Shown: positions 2,930-23,809 of the stretch, in pieces
Layout: each line of letters begins with the position of its first letter
Position numbering within the stretch: position 1 is the stretch's first letter
IMG/VR virus record: IMGVR_UViG_3300023235_000136
Coordinates: 1 to 23,809 of that record
DNA from: a virus
Direction: 5' to 3' (one strand)
DNA: 23,809 nt
Program-made: the position numbers and the translations under genes
The notes under the pieces: generated by a model
The model's database searches: none
What the model was told of the DNA's origin: nothing
The model's input: the letters and a program-made list of their open reading frames with translations, nothing else

Positions 2930-3187
2930 ATGATTAACGACAAGATTAAAAACTGGTTTGGTAAAAAGAAGGAAACTCCAACTGAGCCAGTGGTAGAGAC
3001 TCCAACTGAGCCAGTGGTAGAGACTCCAACTGAGCCAGTGGTAGAGACTCCAACTGAGCCAGTAGTGGAAACTCCAGATAAAGGAATCCCAGCAACTTCA
3101 ATCGCTCCGGCAGTGACGAAGAGAGTATTGCCATATTTAGACTCTGACTCAAATGAGAAGGGAGAGGGAGAAAAAAGTTTTTTATAA
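2930..3187 (+). CDS. PTEPVVE-repeat small protein
   Basis: The 85-residue protein has a basic amphipathic start (MINDKIKNWFGKKKE), four tandem 8-residue units TPTEPVVE and a low-complexity acidic and basic tail. The middle is an extended, disordered Pro/Glu stalk. No domain is recognised. It begins 8 bases after the amidase stop and precedes the glycosyltransferase, so it shares their transcript. It could be a spacer or anchor protein; the lysine-rich head might bind a membrane or nucleic acid. Long ORFs on the opposite strand here are products of the repeat. Confidence 0.55.
   Translation: MINDKIKNWFGKKKETPTEPVVETPTEPVVETPTEPVVETPTEPVVETPDKGIPATSIAPAVTKRVLPYLDSDSNEKGEGEKSFL
2975..3070 (+). 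repeat. Four tandem 24-base repeats
   Basis: The unit ACTCCAACTGAGCCAGTGGTAGAG occurs at 2975-2998, 2999-3022 and 3023-3046 without change and at 3047-3070 with two substitutions. It stays in frame. Near-identity of the copies suggests recent expansion by slippage, and copy number probably varies between relatives. Confidence 0.95.
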
Positions 3188-6418: not shown

Positions 6419-7123
6419 ATGGCATATACAAATCCGCTGATTCCTTTAGTTGATATTCAACAACAGGAACAGCCAAGTAATGAGAGCTCATATCAGTTGG
6501 TTACCTTTGGTACAATAACTGGTGGAAGCCCTTACGCCGGTGCTACTTACGCAAATATCTTTGCGTTAGAGTGCTTACTCCAAGACTTAGACGGTTCAGC
6601 TGTTTACCAAATGACTGGTACAGTTGCTGTTCCAGCTTGGTCAACAATCGGCTCAGGTGCCGCTGGTGCAACTGGTTATACAGGATATACAGGTTATACA
6701 GGCCCTGGAGTAACTGGTGCAACTGGTTACACTGGCGCTGATGGAGCTACTGGTCCTACTGGCTACACTGGTCCTGACGGAGCAGCTACTGACACTGGTG
6801 CCACTGGTCCTGACGGCCCAACTGGTCCTACTGGCTACACTGGCCCTGACGGAGCAGCTACTGACACTGGTGCAACTGGCTACACTGGTCCTGACGGAGC
6901 TACTGGTTATACAGGCTACACTGGATACTCAGGAGCTGATTCTTCAGTTACTGGTCCTGATGGTCCTACTGGCCCTACTGGCTACACTGGTCCTGATGGT
7001 CCTACTGGTTACACAGGATTCACTGGTTACACTGGACCCGGAAACGGCTTCAATGCCGGTCCTACTGGTCCAATACAAACAATCACAATTGTTGATGGTT
7101 TGGTCACAGGAATAACTCTTTAG
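6419..7123 (+). CDS. Collagen-like fibre or decoration protein
   Basis: The 234-residue protein has an N-terminal domain of about 80 residues (with [20 protein letters not shown]), a collagen-like Gly-X-Y tract at residues 83-208 rich in GYT, GAT, GPD and GPT, and a short C-terminal cap ([18 protein letters not shown]). Gly-X-Y tracts form triple helices in phage fibres even without hydroxyproline, Thr replacing it here. The short breaks (ATDT, ADSSV) would be kinks. The C-terminal cap may trimerise the shaft. It sits between neck and nozzle genes, so a whisker, appendage fibre or capsid decoration role is likely. Host binding is possible but not shown. Confidence 0.75.
6665..7042 (+). repeat. 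Collagen-like Gly-X-Y coding tract
   Basis: Degenerate 9-base units encode Gly-X-Thr or Gly-Pro-Asp triplets. A longer direct repeat with a 72-base period is visible: the block starting GGCTACACTGG at 6761 recurs at 6833 over about 46 bases with few changes. The tract also creates a long false ORF in another + frame. Confidence 0.9.
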
Positions 7124-17333: not shown

Positions 17334-17368
17334 AAAAAAGACCCAGTGAAATTACTGGGTCCTTTTTT
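17334..17368. terminator. Bidirectional rho-independent terminator
   Basis: GACCCAGT (17340-17347) and ACTGGGTC (17354-17361) form a perfect 8-bp stem with loop GAAATT. Six T follow at 17363-17368 and six A precede at 17334-17339, so it works on both strands. It lies between the convergent late and early gene blocks and touches the stop of the last - strand gene at 17371. Confidence 0.93.
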
Positions 17369-17915: not shown

Positions 17916-18290
17916 TTATAAGTTTTTTAATCTTTCTAATACATCTTCCGGAGTGTGTCCATCGAACTCTGGAGCTTTATCCAGTGTCTTCGCAAAATAG
18001 GTATCATCCCACTTGCTTTCAGGTAGGTGATAGGTAATTTGTTCTCCGTCCTCTTTGTTTATCCCCATGATAAACCAACCTTCCCAGCTAGTCTCGTCTG
18101 AGTGTAATTTAGAGCGCCATACAGCTGGCTTCATTCTTTCAGGAATTGAGCAGTCATAGTAAACAATATCTGAGAACGTTTTACATAGGAGTATAAACAA
18201 CGTGATTCTATGCTCGTACAACTCTTTAAACGTGTGATAACCGTCTGATACATCTTCTACCTCGCAAGGTAGTATTAATTTATTGTCCAT
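17916..18290 (-). CDS. WDGH-motif phage protein
   Basis: The 124-residue protein contains three signatures of a widespread phage family of unknown function: SDGYHTFKELYEHRITLF near the start, GWFIMGINKEDGEQITYHLP in the middle and EFDGHTPEDVLERL at the end. I know the pattern from other phage genomes; no reaction has been established to my knowledge. The N-terminus MDNKLILP nearly repeats that of the upstream nuclease (MENKLILP). It lies 4 bases after the nuclease stop, so it may work with the recombination proteins. Confidence 0.7.
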   Translation of the reverse strand: MDNKLILPCEVEDVSDGYHTFKELYEHRITLFILLCKTFSDIVYYDCSIPERMKPAVWRSKLHSDETSWEGWFIMGINKEDGEQITYHLPESKWDDTYFAKTLDKAPEFDGHTPEDVLERLKNL

Positions 18291-18294
18291 ATAA

Positions 18295-18918
18295 TTATAT
18301 CTCTTTTAAGAATAATTGATAAGCCTCACTTATTTCATTCGCTGATTTGACGATTAACTTCTCCATTTTATCTATCTCTCTTTCGTCAAACTCGCGATAG
18401 AAACTTTTAATTTTGCCAGTAACCTGGACCGCTCGCTCATTCTCTCTCCAGAAATCGTCAACCTGTTTCTCTCCTTCTTTAGTCTCAATCCAGTCTAGGT
18501 GGCAATACTCAGGCATTTTACCAACTTCCTTGCTGTGCTTTAAAGCTGTAGCATAGAAAACTAATTGACCGTGCTTTATAACCTTAGCCTGAGTCCAAGG
18601 TATCTTACCGGTCTTCTTCTCACGAAAAACATTATCAGTGGGGTTATAATCATCGATGTAGGAGAGTATCGGGACTCCAAATATAGTTGTCCGTATCTCA
18701 TACTCCCTTATCTCGCACACCTCTAACTCCGGCAACAATTCTTTGTGAGTTCCTTTCTCAATCATTTCAGCAATCCCCTTGCCGAACCTGAGATACTTGG
18801 TGTCTAGTTTTTTTCCGCTCTCGAAGTATTCCTTTCGGAATCTACCGGGACTAGATATCCAACAAGACATTGCGGACCAAGATAAATGAGGTTTTGGTAA
18901 TATCAATTTATTTTCCAT
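18295..18918 (-). CDS. RecB/Cas4-like PD-(D/E)XK nuclease
   Basis: The 207-residue product (start ATG 18918; the frame is open to 18942) begins with SWSAMSCWISSPGRFRKEYF, as in RecB-type nucleases where a helix and Arg/Tyr bind DNA. The catalytic set follows: SYIDDYNPTD with Asp89/Asp90, FREKKTGK with Glu100 and Lys102, and GQLVFYATAL with Gln118 and Tyr122 (Q-x-x-x-Y). No four-Cys iron-sulfur cluster as in Cas4 is seen (only C19, C68 and one later Cys). An exonuclease for recombination or packaging ends is likely. It overlaps the upstream gene by 11 bases, implying translational coupling. Confidence 0.75.
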   Translation of the reverse strand: MENKLILPKPHLSWSAMSCWISSPGRFRKEYFESGKKLDTKYLRFGKGIAEMIEKGTHKELLPELEVCEIREYEIRTTIFGVPILSYIDDYNPTDNVFREKKTGKIPWTQAKVIKHGQLVFYATALKHSKEVGKMPEYCHLDWIETKEGEKQVDDFWRENERAVQVTGKIKSFYREFDEREIDKMEKLIVKSANEISEAYQLFLKEI

Positions 18919-19492
18919 CGAATTCATTGCCTTTAATTTCAAGTAATGGAAGTAAAGACATTTTATCCTCGTCAGTCAGCTTAGTTGAAGCATGAATTCT
19001 GTCGATAATAATGTCTAAAGCCTCTTTACTCATACATGAATTAATGGCTTGAGTAGCTTTAACTAGGGCTACACTGCTTGCAGGTGGCTGATTAGTTACC
19101 ACAGGTTGTCCTGACTCAGGCTCAGGAGTTATCTGAATTTCAGGAGCAGTAGTGACGGTATCCATTCCAGTTTGTGTAGGAGTGGAAACTGGAGCAGGCT
19201 CAGGAGTAGGAGTGGTTGGAGTTACAACTGGAGCCGGTGTAGGCTCAGGTCTTTTACCATCCACTAAATAATATTCTTTCCAAAGCTTATTCATGTGAGG
19301 GGCGATAAAATCGTGAGCCTCATCGATTGAACCGGCTTTGACGATAATTTCCGGCTGAATATTGCCGTAGGCAACAGTCGGGATTACCATTTTAATTGAG
19401 TAGCTAAGCATTTGCACTTTGCTTTTAGCCACAACTTTCTTTTTAGCTACAACCTTCTTTTTTGGAGTAGCTTTCTTTTTCGTGTCTTTCAT
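18908..19492 (-). CDS. Lys-tailed protein with Pro/Thr linker, recombination-associated unknown
   Basis: The 194-residue protein has a histone-like basic tail (MKDTKKKATPKKKVVAKKKVVAKSK, about 1-25, with the repeated VVAKKK), a beta/alpha core of about 50 residues (YSIKMVIPTVAYGNIQPEII, EAHDFIAPHMNKLWKEYY), a Pro/Thr/Glu linker (81-135) and a C-terminal helical domain (ALVKATQAINSCMSKEALD, TKLTDEDKMSLLPLLE). It is not identified. Basic tail, core and coupling to the downstream RecB-like nuclease suggest a DNA-binding partner such as a single-strand-binding or annealing factor. That is inference. Confidence 0.55.
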   Translation of the reverse strand: MKDTKKKATPKKKVVAKKKVVAKSKVQMLSYSIKMVIPTVAYGNIQPEIIVKAGSIDEAHDFIAPHMNKLWKEYYLVDGKRPEPTPAPVVTPTTPTPEPAPVSTPTQTGMDTVTTAPEIQITPEPESGQPVVTNQPPASSVALVKATQAINSCMSKEALDIIIDRIHASTKLTDEDKMSLLPLLEIKGNEFDGK

Positions 19493-19515: not shown

Positions 19516-19812
19516 TTAAATACTTAATTGAGTAAATCTCAATGAAGGTTTCTCTTCAAAGGTAGCCTCACCAGTGCTTTGTTCAGTGGCTTTTTGAGCC
19601 TTAAACTGCTCTTCTAGTTCAGTTACCTTTGGTGTGTAGGTCCAAGTTTTTACCTTGGCTAGTGTGAATTTTCCTACAGGAGTGTCAGCCCCAGTAGCAT
19701 TGTCCTTCACAATGTCCTCGATGATGTTGACCTTTAGCGCGTCTTTCTGTGCTGTTAATTTTTTAATTTGGGAGTCGAGAACAGCATACTCCTCGTACAT
19801 TTTTTCTGACAT
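19516..19812 (-). CDS. Gp157-like coiled-coil phage protein
   Basis: The 98-residue protein has an N-terminal coiled coil (about 2-35, EYAVLDSQIKKLTAQKDALK), a strand pair TPVGKFTLAKVKTWTYTPKV and a tail EKPSLRFTQLSI. The pattern 'coiled coil, VGKFT, K-W-Y' recurs in phage early regions, often near recombination and single-strand-binding genes and annotated as hypothetical or siphovirus Gp157-like. Its role is unknown; a nucleic-acid or nuclease cofactor is plausible. It starts 1 base after the stop of the ribbon-helix-helix gene, indicating coupling. Confidence 0.55.
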   Translation of the reverse strand: MSEKMYEEYAVLDSQIKKLTAQKDALKVNIIEDIVKDNATGADTPVGKFTLAKVKTWTYTPKVTELEEQFKAQKATEQSTGEATFEEKPSLRFTQLSI

Positions 19813-19813
19813 A

Positions 19814-19996
19814 TTATTTTCTAGTTACTTTTTTAGATTCCATAGCCATGTCGATGATATCTCTAAAGATTTCACCTTCAGTGACATTTTGTTTTTTAGC
19901 CTGTGCCTTGATAAACTTTTGCTGACTAGGTCTAATTCTAGTATTGATTCTAGCCATTGGCATTGCTTTTTTGATGGTTTTTTTAGTTTTGTTCAT
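19814..19996 (-). CDS. Ribbon-helix-helix (CopG/Arc-like) regulator
   Basis: The 60-residue protein has a basic tail (MNKTKKTIKKAMPMA) and one ribbon-helix-helix unit: strand ARINTRIRP (about 15-23), helix SQQKFIKAQAKKQ (24-36), turn NVTEG and helix EIFRDIIDMAM (42-52). These proteins dimerise, insert the paired strands in the major groove and bind palindromes. A 12-bp palindrome inside the promoter at 20390-20418, upstream of the preceding gene in the same transcript, is a natural target, so autoregulation is likely. Length is normal for phage Arc/CopG-type regulators. Confidence 0.78.
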   Translation of the reverse strand: MNKTKKTIKKAMPMARINTRIRPSQQKFIKAQAKKQNVTEGEIFRDIIDMAMESKKVTRK

Positions 19997-20007
19997 AGTG
20001 AGTATTG

Positions 20008-20379
20008 TTATATTTTAATTATTATTTCTGATAGTTCCTCTGCCGTTAACCGGGAGATAGAAATTACCCCTTCTTCTCTTAACTTTAATATCTCGTTGAA
20101 TCTTATACAGCAGAATTCGTCTTTGAATTTTATAATCAGGTAGGAGGGTAGAGGTGGAATAGATACTCCATCGCATGGCTTGGGCCGGCTTATTTCGTCC
20201 GACAATTTCCACACAAGCCCATTCTTCTCTGTGGACTGTAAGCCTTCCCACTGGACCTTCTCAATCTTCCCGAACTGAAATGATTCTGTCATAGTTTGTT
20301 TTAACTCATAGTAGCAGTAAAATTTCTTTTCTCGTAAGTATTGATTTAGTAATGTATTCCATTTTTGTTCTTTCTTCAT
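20008..20379 (-). CDS. RecU-like PD-(D/E)XK nuclease (putative Holliday junction resolvase)
   Basis: The 123-residue protein has the core FYCYYELKQTMTESFQFGKIEKVQWEGLQS. The E-x-K (Glu25-Leu-Lys27) followed by a Phe-rich segment and Gln43 resembles the RecU/resolvase type of PD-(D/E)XK fold, where the acid pair and Lys bind metal and cut branched DNA. The downstream half (ISRPKPCDGVSIPP, SYLIIKFKDEFCCIRF) supplies the later strands. An upstream catalytic acid is not obvious in the short N-terminus, so activity is unproven. It is the first gene after the promoter at 20390-20418, with a predicted leader of only about 4 bases. Confidence 0.55.
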   Translation of the reverse strand: MKKEQKWNTLLNQYLREKKFYCYYELKQTMTESFQFGKIEKVQWEGLQSTEKNGLVWKLSDEISRPKPCDGVSIPPLPSYLIIKFKDEFCCIRFNEILKLREEGVISISRLTAEELSEIIIKI

Positions 20380-20389
20380 ATCTGTTTAT

Positions 20390-20418
20390 ATTTTAGCATA
20401 TAGCGATGTCGCTGTCAA
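20390..20418 (-). promoter_or_regulatory. Sigma70 promoter for the recombination operon
   Basis: On the - strand TTGACA (20418-20413) and TAAAAT (20395-20390) are spaced by exactly 17 bases; only one base departs from consensus. The predicted start near 20383 is about 4 bases before ATG 20379, so the message would be almost leaderless. It is the only clear promoter in the early block. Confidence 0.75.
20402..20413. promoter_or_regulatory. Putative operator palindrome inside the promoter
   Basis: AGCGATGTCGCT is an inverted repeat with 5-base arms and a 2-base centre. It fills most of the spacer and touches the -35 box, where a bound repressor would block RNA polymerase. A ribbon-helix-helix protein is encoded in the operon it controls. 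Confidence 0.5.
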
Positions 20419-20428
20419 ATGTTTAAAG

Positions 20429-20857
20429 TTAACTTTTCTTTGTTTCAAATGTTTTCTTCAACGACCACCCGCCCCTTTTAATCCTTAATGTCAGTGCACT
20501 GGGGCTACAGCCTAGTTTTATTGCCGCTTCTTTCAGCGTTTCTCCTTTATATCTCACATTATTTATTCTATTATTCATCTGTTCGGTTTTTGTAGCCCAC
20601 CGACAATTCGATTTGGAATAACCTTTATTGTTATTTATTCTATCCAAAGACAACCCTTCTTGTGGCAACTCCATATCATCTATAAAAGCTTGGATAGATT
20701 CTCTCCACCTTTTGCAAACCTTTATACCTCTGCCACCATAATATTTATAATCTTTATTCTTCGGATTACCACACCTATCAACCATTTGATACCACCTTCT
20801 ATATATTTTAGAAATACCGCCAGTAGCATATCCGTGTTTTTTATGTTTTTTTGTCAT
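20429..20857 (-). CDS. HNH homing-type endonuclease
   Basis: The 142-residue protein starts at ATG 20857, overlapping the helicase stop as ATGA; the upstream open frame to 20914 is part of the helicase. It has YRRWYQMVDRCGNP, YYGGRGIKVCKRW, LSLDRINNNKGYSKSNCRWA with Asp72, Asn84 and Asn96, and then TEQMNNR. This is the common phage HNH family in which the first His is replaced by Asp. Residues 104-128 (YKGETLKEAAIKLGCSPSALTLRIKRG) look like a NUMOD-type helix-turn-helix for site choice. Such genes are typically mobile and insert beside replication genes. Confidence 0.85.
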   Translation of the reverse strand: MTKKHKKHGYATGGISKIYRRWYQMVDRCGNPKNKDYKYYGGRGIKVCKRWRESIQAFIDDMELPQEGLSLDRINNNKGYSKSNCRWATKTEQMNNRINNVRYKGETLKEAAIKLGCSPSALTLRIKRGGWSLKKTFETKKS

Positions 20858-22131
20858 ATGTTTAGAGAGAGCTTTTCTTGAAAATCCTGTCCTGACATTA
20901 TAGTATCGTGGCAATCTTTGTCACACCCCTCGACCACAAGGTGGATATATAAATTCTTCTTCAGTTTATTGGCGCGTAGGACTCTGCCAAGAGATTGTTC
21001 GTAGTCAACGTATCTCCAGGACTTACTGGCATAGATAACGCAGGGGAATGTTGGAAGTTCGTAACCGGAAGAAATCGAACTTTGGGCAACAATAATGTGG
21101 GGTTCCGGACTATCATTTACGGTTTTTATAAAGCTTCTATCTTTCGTAGCCCCGTTTAGTATTGACACTTCATAGTTTTCCTTCCTTAATACTCTAGCAA
21201 TCTCCTCGATTTGGGCTGTGTAGTTGGCAAAAACAAGTAATTTAGGGAACTCTTGGGCTCTTTCTACTATATAATCTATCTTATTTGACTTAAAAAGGGT
21301 GGTATGATTGGTCATTTTGTCTATTTTACCCTCTAACTCCTCAATCTTCTTCCCATATAGCACTCCATTCTCTATTGTACGGAGCCTGGAGCGCCTCACA
21401 AGCGGGTCAGCCTCAGATAGGGTAATATCTGCTACGGCCTTCCTTTGCTCCCCGCTAAGCTCAATTCCAACGGTTTTATGGGTTTGCTCGGGTACATCAA
21501 AGAAATCATTTAAACCACCTGTATATCCAAAGGTTTGGACTAGGTTAGCTAACCGCTGTTTAATAGCCTCATCCTTCTTAGGCATCCAAATTCTACGGAT
21601 TCCACCTATTCTGATTTCAACGTAATAAGTTCTACGGAACTGGTCAAAGTCCCATTCCTGGCCGAACAATATTCCAATACCCCACATGCTCATTGGCTTG
21701 GGGACCGGGGTGGCTGACAATAGATAAAGTCTTTTCGGATTGTGCTTTTTTACATAATTCAGAGTAGCTTCAAAAATCTGGGAGGTCTTAGGTTTCTGTA
21801 TCTTATTCTTCTGAACATACATTGGGAGTATACCTAAATTATTGTGGCACTCATCAATTATAACTGTTTCAAAATATTCTAATTCATCCCACATTTTCCG
21901 GATGTCTTCTTTACTTATAACTGTTAGGTTAACTTTAGTGGCCCACTTTTTATTTTCTCTTTCCCAGGTTTTATCTTCTCTTTGTTGCTTAGGACATATG
22001 ACCAAGGTTTCGCCAGTAGCTAACTCCAGTGCAGTTCGTGTCTTAGAGGCTCCAGTGCCTAAAAACAGGCCACATTTAAGTTTCCCCTCGGCTATTATTT
22101 TCTCTTGGTGTGCATAGAGTTTAGGTATCAT
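20854..22131 (-). CDS. SF2 (DEAD-like) DNA helicase
   Basis: The 425-residue protein carries the superfamily 2 motifs: Q-like LYAHQEKII (5-13), motif I FLGTGASKTRTAL (Lys30), motif II IIDECHN (Asp93-His96, DECH), motif III LLSATP (139-142), SGYELPTFPCVIYASKSW and motif VI YEQSLGRVLRANK (Gln379, Arg383, Arg386). It would unwind DNA or remodel replication or recombination intermediates with ATP. Motif I is odd: Ser29 stands where a Gly nearly always precedes the Lys. It follows the primase-helicase by 4 bases, so a replication role is likely. Length and motif order are otherwise normal. Confidence 0.85.
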   Translation of the reverse strand: MIPKLYAHQEKIIAEGKLKCGLFLGTGASKTRTALELATGETLVICPKQQREDKTWERENKKWATKVNLTVISKEDIRKMWDELEYFETVIIDECHNNLGILPMYVQKNKIQKPKTSQIFEATLNYVKKHNPKRLYLLSATPVPKPMSMWGIGILFGQEWDFDQFRRTYYVEIRIGGIRRIWMPKKDEAIKQRLANLVQTFGYTGGLNDFFDVPEQTHKTVGIELSGEQRKAVADITLSEADPLVRRSRLRTIENGVLYGKKIEELEGKIDKMTNHTTLFKSNKIDYIVERAQEFPKLLVFANYTAQIEEIARVLRKENYEVSILNGATKDRSFIKTVNDSPEPHIIVAQSSISSGYELPTFPCVIYASKSWRYVDYEQSLGRVLRANKLKKNLYIHLVVEGCDKDCHDTIMSGQDFQEKLSLNI

Positions 22132-22135
22132 ATTT

Positions 22136-23809
22136 TTATTTAGTATAATCTTGATAAGGATTATTATTTAAACCTCCGTTAACTTCGTTTTGCTTTATCC
22201 ACTGAGGACTTAGGGCTATGCCTGTGAACCTGGACTCTCCTCCGCCACCCTTTCGTGGTTCAAATCCAAATCGATTTCCCTTTGCCCCGTAGGCTCGGAC
22301 TTCTTTAGTGAAAGTTATATTAGCTTTAGTTTTTCTTCCGCCGTCAGTAGCACTCCAGTTTTTATATTCAATATAAAGGGCCGGAGTTTCTATATCGCTC
22401 CACTCATTAAGAACAATACATTGAGATAGGAAGCCTTCAACTGAGGAGTTCTCCTCGCGGTATTCATCTAGCATTGCAATCTGTTCTTTAGTTACTACAA
22501 ACTTTTTACTTTCAGCCAAGTCAATAGCCCCCTCAATCATCCAATTTAGTATCCCCGGCAGTTCTTTTGCTAGCAATCCAATATCTGAACGCAGTTCGAT
22601 GTTTGGATTATCACGATAGTTATTCAAAAACATTAGACAGCAAATTCTTCGCTCGGTAGCTGTAGATGTATCGTCAACTCTAGGTAACATATTTACAGCG
22701 AAGACAAACTTAGCTTGAGGTCTGAATTTAAATTGGTCTTTATATTTTATATCAATAGTTACTTGCTCACCGGAGACTAATTTTTTCAGCTTATTACTCT
22801 GATAGTAATTTCCGTGAACCTCCTCGATTATATTTAATCTCTTTCCTATCAAACCTTTGAAACCGAACTGACCATACAAACTTTCAAGGTCAATGTGAGA
22901 AGTCGCGTCCGGCCCGATTATCATTGCGACTGTATCTATAAAAGTAGACTTACCGTTTCCACCGTCTCCAACCATAAATAAGGCTCTGTCGTGGAGCATT
23001 GAAGAAGACAGGCAATAACCACAGAACTGCTGTAGCAACCTAGTCTTTTCTTCCTGCTCGTCTCCTAACATCCAGTCTTCTATACATTGGTCCCAAGTAG
23101 GACATTTTGCAGTAGGGTCGTAATTAACCGGGTACTGAATCAATGAAACAAAGTCCGGAGTGTGAGGTGATAATTCTTTAGTATAAATATTAAGCAAGCC
23201 GTTTTTTACGTTAGCTATGTAGCCCCCGTCGTCTGAGACAACTAACTTCGGTATGATTGAAAGTAGACAGGCTACTTTGTCTGAAACATTTCTCTTGGTT
23301 CTGTAGCCCCAGAGCATATCGTCGTAGAGCCCATTTAAAACCATATCAGAAATATCCTGGTCAGACAGCATTTTGTAAACTCCCTTTTCATATTGGAAGA
23401 TAATCCCGATTTCGTTCTTTCTTAGGTGAGGATTGTTGATTAAAATCTCGCGCTCATAGGCGGAGAACCTAACTTTGTCCTGGTCTTTGCGGTCCTTAAT
23501 AACTTTAGTGTAGGCCTGCTGTATCTTTTGGTTCTCAACCGGAGACATATTGTAGGCTATAACCTCATTTTTATAGGAGTAAGTATAGTTCCCGGCGAAA
23601 GCACTCTGAATAGTGTTAACAATCTCCTGGGCTCCTCCTGGCTCGAGTTCCATTCCGTGCCAACCAACCTTGCCAATATGTTTAAGGGCTTTCTCGGAGG
23701 TCCATTCAGCTTGCCTCATTAGACAGGCTGTGATGTGAAGTGTTGTATTGCGACCGACTGACGGATAAATACTGTCAGCATTGTTGCTAATTAATTTTTG
23801 AAAACTATC
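22136..23809 (-). CDS. Primase-helicase, PriCT plus D5/SF3 type, 5'-truncated
   Basis: The frame is open to the right edge: upstream of the Met at 23719 it still reads YPSVGRNTTLHITACLM, so the start lies beyond the window and at least 558 residues are visible. Counting from the edge, a PriCT-like helical part (GRNTTLHI...EIVNTIQSAF) leads to a D5_N-like region, then an SF3 helicase with Walker A GDGGNGKST (Lys287), Walker B LNIIEE, sensor FAVNMLPRVDD and an Arg pair ATERRICC. SF3 helicases form hexamers that unwind DNA at forks. The missing front part probably holds a primase domain. It heads the early block, as expected for the main replication enzyme. Confidence 0.88.
   Translation of the reverse strand, partial: DSFQKLISNNADSIYPSVGRNTTLHITACLMRQAEWTSEKALKHIGKVGWHGMELEPGGAQEIVNTIQSAFAGNYTYSYKNEVIAYNMSPVENQKIQQAYTKVIKDRKDQDKVRFSAYEREILINNPHLRKNEIGIIFQYEKGVYKMLSDQDISDMVLNGLYDDMLWGYRTKRNVSDKVACLLSIIPKLVVSDDGGYIANVKNGLLNIYTKELSPHTPDFVSLIQYPVNYDPTAKCPTWDQCIEDWMLGDEQEEKTRLLQQFCGYCLSSSMLHDRALFMVGDGGNGKSTFIDTVAMIIGPDATSHIDLESLYGQFGFKGLIGKRLNIIEEVHGNYYQSNKLKKLVSGEQVTIDIKYKDQFKFRPQAKFVFAVNMLPRVDDTSTATERRICCLMFLNNYRDNPNIELRSDIGLLAKELPGILNWMIEGAIDLAESKKFVVTKEQIAMLDEYREENSSVEGFLSQCIVLNEWSDIETPALYIEYKNWSATDGGRKTKANITFTKEVRAYGAKGNRFGFEPRKGGGGESRFTGIALSPQWIKQNEVNGGLNNNPYQDYTK

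Follow-up and report, generated by a model that had tools for sequence, protein, structure and literature searches.

Arc of phage P22 is a ribbon-helix-helix (RHH) repressor that overlaps a promoter on a 21-bp operator with two half-sites. Mnt is likewise a P22 repressor, and MetJ binds 8-bp met boxes. The locus described here resembles these systems in having a putative RHH repressor over a promoter; Arc is, moreover, phage-encoded, and the R-x-N-x-R layout found here is similar to that of its contact strand. Neither Arc nor MetJ uses 6-bp hexads, however, and Arc gave no sequence match here.

The closest known mode of working is that of the omega protein (ParB of pSM19035), an RHH repressor of Gram-positive plasmids which recognizes a 7-bp non-palindromic sequence, WATCACW, in 7-10 copies (PMC9499535). 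These repeats are direct or inverted, overlap promoters including omega's own, and are bound cooperatively (PMC9499535). Common to both systems are a small RHH protein and short non-palindromic repeats that lie over promoters in either orientation, here as judged from sequence only; cooperative binding, known for omega, is proposed for the present locus. The likeness concerns the mode of working. Omega also serves in plasmid partition, and in place of its 7-bp heptads the repeats found here have a period of 6 bp, the unit GACAYC and 2-3 copies, so that the hexads are not an omega operator.

In archaeal viruses, the RHH regulators SvtR and AvtR are autorepressors that also act elsewhere on viral DNA, and the operators of SvtR, AvtR and F55 are imperfect inverted repeats or, in F55, two tandem ATAGATAGAGT (PMC5569661). 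These regulators share with the present one that they are virus-encoded, and AvtR gives the best, though weak, profile match to the RHH family found here (E = 0.057). They differ in their archaeal promoters and other operators, and each AvtR chain contains two RHH motifs. With regard to translation, a −10 element adjoining the open reading frame gives leaderless messages in Deinococcus-Thermus (PMC12340547), and the message of lambda cI is leaderless (PMC9031893). As in those genes, the −10 element of the present locus lies few base pairs from the ATG. Those are cellular genes and a lysogeny repressor, whereas here we deal with a phage recombination operon that has a full TTGACA and a putative regulatory array, in a genome lacking a Shine-Dalgarno signal.

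The stretch of DNA analyzed in full (the window; 23,809 nucleotides) is a 23.8-kb record of an uncultured phage. Rightward genes, structural and late by appearance, extend from 1 to 17.3 kb, and leftward replication and recombination genes run from 23.7 to 17.4 kb; the two sets converge on a terminator-like hairpin. Judging from gene content and orientation, the operon of interest is presumably early. Its features are the following.

20413-20418, minus strand: −35 hexamer TTGACA, the GACA part of which opens the first hexad
20411-20416, minus strand: hexad 1, GACAGC, assigned from the phased hexads across relatives
20405-20410, minus strand: hexad 2, GACATC, assigned in the same way
20399-20404, minus strand: putative degenerate third hexad position, GCTATA, suggested by relatives, several of which have GACATA here
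20402-20413: palindrome AGCGA-TG-TCGCT (AGCGACATCGCT on the complementary strand); it exists here but is not what relatives conserve
20390-20395, minus strand: −10 hexamer TAAAAT, with TGC immediately upstream (extended −10, 20398-20396)
20380-20383, minus strand: predicted 4-nt leader AGAT, with the start at A20383 if it lies 7 nt past the −10 element
20008-20379, minus strand: first gene, 123 aa, a RecU-like, Holliday-junction-resolvase-like nuclease according to protein and fold matches
19814-19996, minus strand: second gene, 60-aa RHH protein with the strand R16-I-N18-T-R20-I, the proposed autorepressor
19516-19812, minus strand: third gene, 98 aa, conserved
18908-19492, minus strand: fourth gene, 194 aa, conserved
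18295-18942, minus strand: fifth gene, 215 aa, conserved, nuclease-like by eye, with no family match
17916-18290, minus strand: WDGH-domain protein (PF25311), likewise leftward and lying downstream
17334-17367, minus strand: strong terminator-like hairpin, bidirectional, which ends the leftward operon

Read on the minus strand from 20418 down, the sequence is TTGACA GCGACATCGCTATATGC TAAAAT ATAAACAGAT ATG with a 17-bp spacer, just as the initial annotation had described the promoter before ATG 20379. The pattern TTGACA-N16-18-TANAAT matches only once in the window (0.05 matches expected by chance; at least one match in 5 of 100 shuffles), and the extended −10 position carries TG. No further exact copies of the promoter were found across the whole virus record, nor was any RNA family or tRNA found that would explain the element. 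The −10 element lies 10 bp from ATG 20379, and the predicted transcript start about 4 bases before the ATG holds provided that the start is canonical. One other candidate, GTGACA-16-TATAAT (20924-20897, minus strand), was rejected as the operon promoter, as it lies inside the conserved coding end of the helicase gene and is probably a coding coincidence. It matches the consensus at 11 of 12 positions, and similar sites, probably forced by the protein sequence, are present in relatives G001 and G003. In the interval from the helicase stop to this promoter, the window carries an HNH endonuclease gene (phrog_3377; 20429-20857, minus strand) as a cassette that is missing at that spot in L004, L006, L007 and L009, while G012 has a different HNH-like gene there.

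The first gene product gives a weak sequence match to the phrog_843 Holliday junction resolvase (E 2.9e-5). Its structural model (pLDDT 82) has a RecU-like PD-(D/E)XK nuclease fold, and the top eight Foldseek matches among solved structures are all RecU (probability 0.97-1.0, E 0.006-0.08). Homologues are conserved from residue 2 on, an observation in favor of ATG 20379 as start codon.

Two scans with the first gene yielded 28 viral loci, to which a DNA-pattern scan added one more (L050); 27 distinct records were analyzed. No relatives of the first gene were found in bacterial genomes or among 50,697 deposited phage records, and a search with the 60-aa RHH protein alone returned nothing. The gene order helicase, nuclease, RHH is kept in all analyzed records except G021, where the helicase gene lies at the opposite end of the record. 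A promoter with the same type of spacer is found between the helicase and RHH genes in 25 of the 27 records (G004 equals G005 in sequence); G019 has no such site, and the sites of G002 and G010 are weak.

The spacers of these relatives contain 2-3 GACAYC-like hexads in a 6-bp phase, mostly as direct repeats and in some records inverted, as exemplified by TTGACACCGACACCGACATAGAATATAAT (G007), TTGACAGCGACACCGACATAGAATATAAT (G016) and TTGACGGCGACATCGACATAGGATACACT (G024). The unit usually opens within the −35 box, giving TT-GACACC-GACACC-GACATA; the window reads TT-GACAGC-GACATC-GCTATA, in which only two hexads are clear. When the spacers of the main set are compared with themselves at a shift of 6, 52% of positions match versus 25% in shuffles (z = 10.3), although the hexad z-scores overstate independence because the sites share descent and several were first found by motif search. 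G013, G014, G015, G017, G018 and several second promoters had been chosen on their −35 and −10 elements alone. Spacers of second promoters give z = 6.0 at lag 6. No lag other than 6 goes above z = 2.6, and lag 7 is below shuffles (z = −2.3). Half-sites within spacers number 57, against 13.9 in shuffles (shuffle maximum 25). With a leave-one-out matrix, the window site comes out on top at 31.0 bits, the runner-up scoring 8.5.

The initial annotation had taken a different element, the palindrome, for the operator, which an RHH dimer would bind as a classical inverted repeat. This 12-bp sequence, AGCGATGTCGCT (20402-20413), is indeed an inverted repeat with good 5-bp arms around a non-palindromic TG/CA center, and dyads also occur in G002, G006, G009 and G014. 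It does not fill the spacer, however, covering only the first 11 spacer bases and, from the −35 box, its final A, and the exact sequence AGCGANNTCGCT, of which further copies were sought, occurs only once in the window. When 18-mers are random or shuffled, 13-16% of them contain a dyad of equal or better quality, so that by itself the palindrome does not exceed chance. Many sites lack a dyad altogether (G007, G016, G027, G028, G029), and the mean dyad score of the spacers over relatives is at shuffle level (z = 0.5) while the 6-bp phasing is very strong: what relatives conserve is not the dyad but the phased GACAYC hexads. We therefore regard a palindromic operator as improbable; the 12-bp palindrome appears to be a by-product of two hexads and chance.

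The orientation of the hexads bears on a further alternative, namely that the repeats in the spacer belong to a specialized promoter recognized by a sigma factor of the phage or the host, without any repressor. Consistent with this, their placement beside the −35 box is fixed in most sites. Elsewhere, however, the hexads are shifted by several base pairs, and their number ranges from 1 to 3. In G017 and G018, two hexads are reversed (GACACC-GTTGTC-GGTGTC), and in G013, G015 and another promoter of G022 it is the middle hexad that is reversed, in each case with the 6-bp phase kept, so that by sequence direct and inverted repeats both occur at these sites. Such inverted hexads are easier to reconcile with a protein-binding site separate from the promoter than with a sigma element. 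As the −35 and −10 elements are, moreover, already near-consensus for sigma-70, we consider a specialized promoter very improbable, and favor an operator of tandem hexads laid over a sigma-70-type promoter.

Which protein would bind these hexads? The gene predicted to encode an RHH-like product is second in the operon, as originally annotated. Its AlphaFold model, a monomer, contains helices 23-36 and 40-59 after an extended R16-R20 (core pLDDT 92-96), that is, a strand followed by two helices at RHH spacing. The Foldseek list is dominated by RHH proteins (TacA1, CopG, ParG, Arc), each a weak match with E 0.27 and above, and Pfam returns sub-threshold matches to NikA-like, TacA1 and ParG families and also to DUF6290. 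Individually weak, these matches agree together and support an RHH fold. R16, N18 and R20 are invariant in close relatives, and such an alternating R-N-R in the modeled strand fits the DNA-contacting beta ribbon of a dimer. In G013, G015 and G022, the strand reads R-L-N-S-H/Y-V and the hexads often end in A (GACACA), a co-occurrence that is suggestive only. In G028 and G029, the strand differs (R-x-Y-P-G) and the hexads are still GACACC, which counts against a simple code.

The element and the RHH gene are linked across the phage group. Each of the 27 records has one RHH gene that could be recognized, always downstream of the nuclease gene. Close-branch phages have the element before the nuclease gene or extra small genes ahead of it (G002, G003, G010, G012, G016). 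In the distant branch (G020, G021, G022, G024, G027, G028, G029), it lies between the nuclease stop and the RHH start. The factor shared by both branches is an RHH gene downstream of the element. By its sequence position, the putative operator overlaps the promoter of the RHH-encoding operon in 25 of the 27 records. A second copy of the element precedes another early operon of small genes in G024, G027, G028 and G029, and scoring turned up additional sites of this type in G021 and G022. Among complete close relatives, the second early promoters of G003 and G006 have spacers that have clearly diverged; in G005, no second early promoter was recognized. Strong sigma-70-like promoters with diverged, partly related spacers were also seen in G003 (25155, 30116, 32274), G014 (9282, 13554) and G015 (11673, 15023); several of them carry TTTGA immediately before the −10 element and may be further regulon members.

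These arrangements also speak to the notion that only the promoter is conserved, the repeats reflecting shared descent and translation of the first gene using an internal or longer message. The close-branch sites are homologous and leader lengths vary, as it would predict. Against it, the position of the element differs between branches, the element is found again at second promoters, ahead of unrelated genes, its sequence varies while the phasing stays, and the protein read from ATG 20379 is conserved from residue 2 on. We consider this explanation hardly credible.

A more serious rival assigns the hexads to another regulator, encoded by the host or by another phage gene, and holds that the RHH protein does something else, such as plasmid-like partition or DNA packing. 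Linkage alone is no proof of binding, and G028 and G029 keep their hexads despite two different residues in the RHH strand. The strict promoter pattern, however, was found in 257 Gb searched in only four viral contigs, all from this phage group, and two bacterial contigs, and the hexad element is thus not a common host operator. Furthermore, each record has one RHH gene, always downstream of the element, and no HTH_3 repressor gene was found in 16 records. On balance, we regard another regulator as unlikely. The same 16 records contained no tyrosine integrase either. The bacterial matches to the strict pattern (L046 542-570; L047 3251-3279, reverse strand) lie upstream of host-looking genes. 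These two contigs are from Firestonebacteria and Dehalococcoidia, and their matches were taken as chance, no phage-like or RHH gene being recognized in the translations shown.

The sole RHH gene per record, the position of the element directly before it in the distant branch and the second copies of the element make it likely that the RHH protein is an auto-repressor that blocks RNA polymerase. Of the self-regulated switch proposed in the initial annotation, the compact promoter-operator ahead of the RHH operon stands, linked to it and moving with the first gene, while the palindrome as its operator is not supported.

To evaluate how the first gene would be translated, the gap between the −10 element and the first start codon of an open reading frame of at least 40 aa was determined at 25 sites. 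This gap is 4-10 bp in 13 of them, for which the leader is predicted at 0-4 nt; with the 4-bp gap of G011, transcription would start on the ATG itself. The first genes behind these short gaps are unrelated, comprising the nuclease, three small open reading frames (G002, G003, G015) and the RHH gene (G029). In 11 sites, the gap is 14-53 bp, and G010 has no such reading frame nearby, so that the short spacing is not a universal trait. A Shine-Dalgarno-like motif precedes none of the 21 window genes of at least 90 aa, and seven relatives are near shuffled expectation. With no clear signal above shuffles in the group, translation seems generally Shine-Dalgarno-independent, and because the phages lack Shine-Dalgarno enrichment, leaderless starts are unsurprising and less special than at first sight. 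Leaderless translation of the first gene of the window is plausible, and near-leaderless translation in the window phage is likely.

Taken as a whole, a sigma-70 early promoter with a hexad operator, autorepression by the RHH protein and a near-leaderless first gene is, in our view, probably the best explanation of the locus. A sigma-70-type promoter would drive a recombination and replication operon encoding the RecU-like nuclease, the RHH protein and conserved small proteins. Its operator would consist of tandem 6-bp half-sites, consensus GACAYC, running from the −35 box into the spacer. Host polymerase would make the first transcripts, upon which the RHH protein of the operon would build up. 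As the inferred binder, presumably repressing rather than activating, it would occupy the hexad array cooperatively, probably with one dimer per hexad, and by blocking RNA polymerase switch its own operon off; in relatives, another early operon whose operator matches would also be shut off. The distance from transcript start to ATG is probably 0-4 nt in the window phage, and the near-leaderless message would rely on the Shine-Dalgarno-independent initiation that seems to prevail genome-wide.

More tentatively, and with somewhat less than even confidence, we propose that this undescribed phage group uses a hexad code: the RHH protein would read GACAYC in either orientation, in a 6-bp phase from the −35 box, and co-ordinate two early operons, the first gene being leaderless in a host whose translation does not depend on Shine-Dalgarno sequences. 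For an uncultured phage group, the locus provides a concrete, testable candidate for an early-gene switch. About 40 natural operator variants with matching RHH sequences are useful for learning how RHH proteins read repeat DNA, and confirmed transcript starts would add a family of phage operons whose messages are naturally leaderless.

Some minor observations concern other genes of these phages. In G006 (L072), an insert of about 0.9 kb (approximately 21605-22512 of the record) breaks the helicase frame and matches no Rfam intron family; it may be an intein or an intron. On the plus strand, the window encodes a collagen-like protein with many GYTGPxG-type repeats (6419-7123) and a small protein with tandem PTEPVVET repeats (2930-3187).
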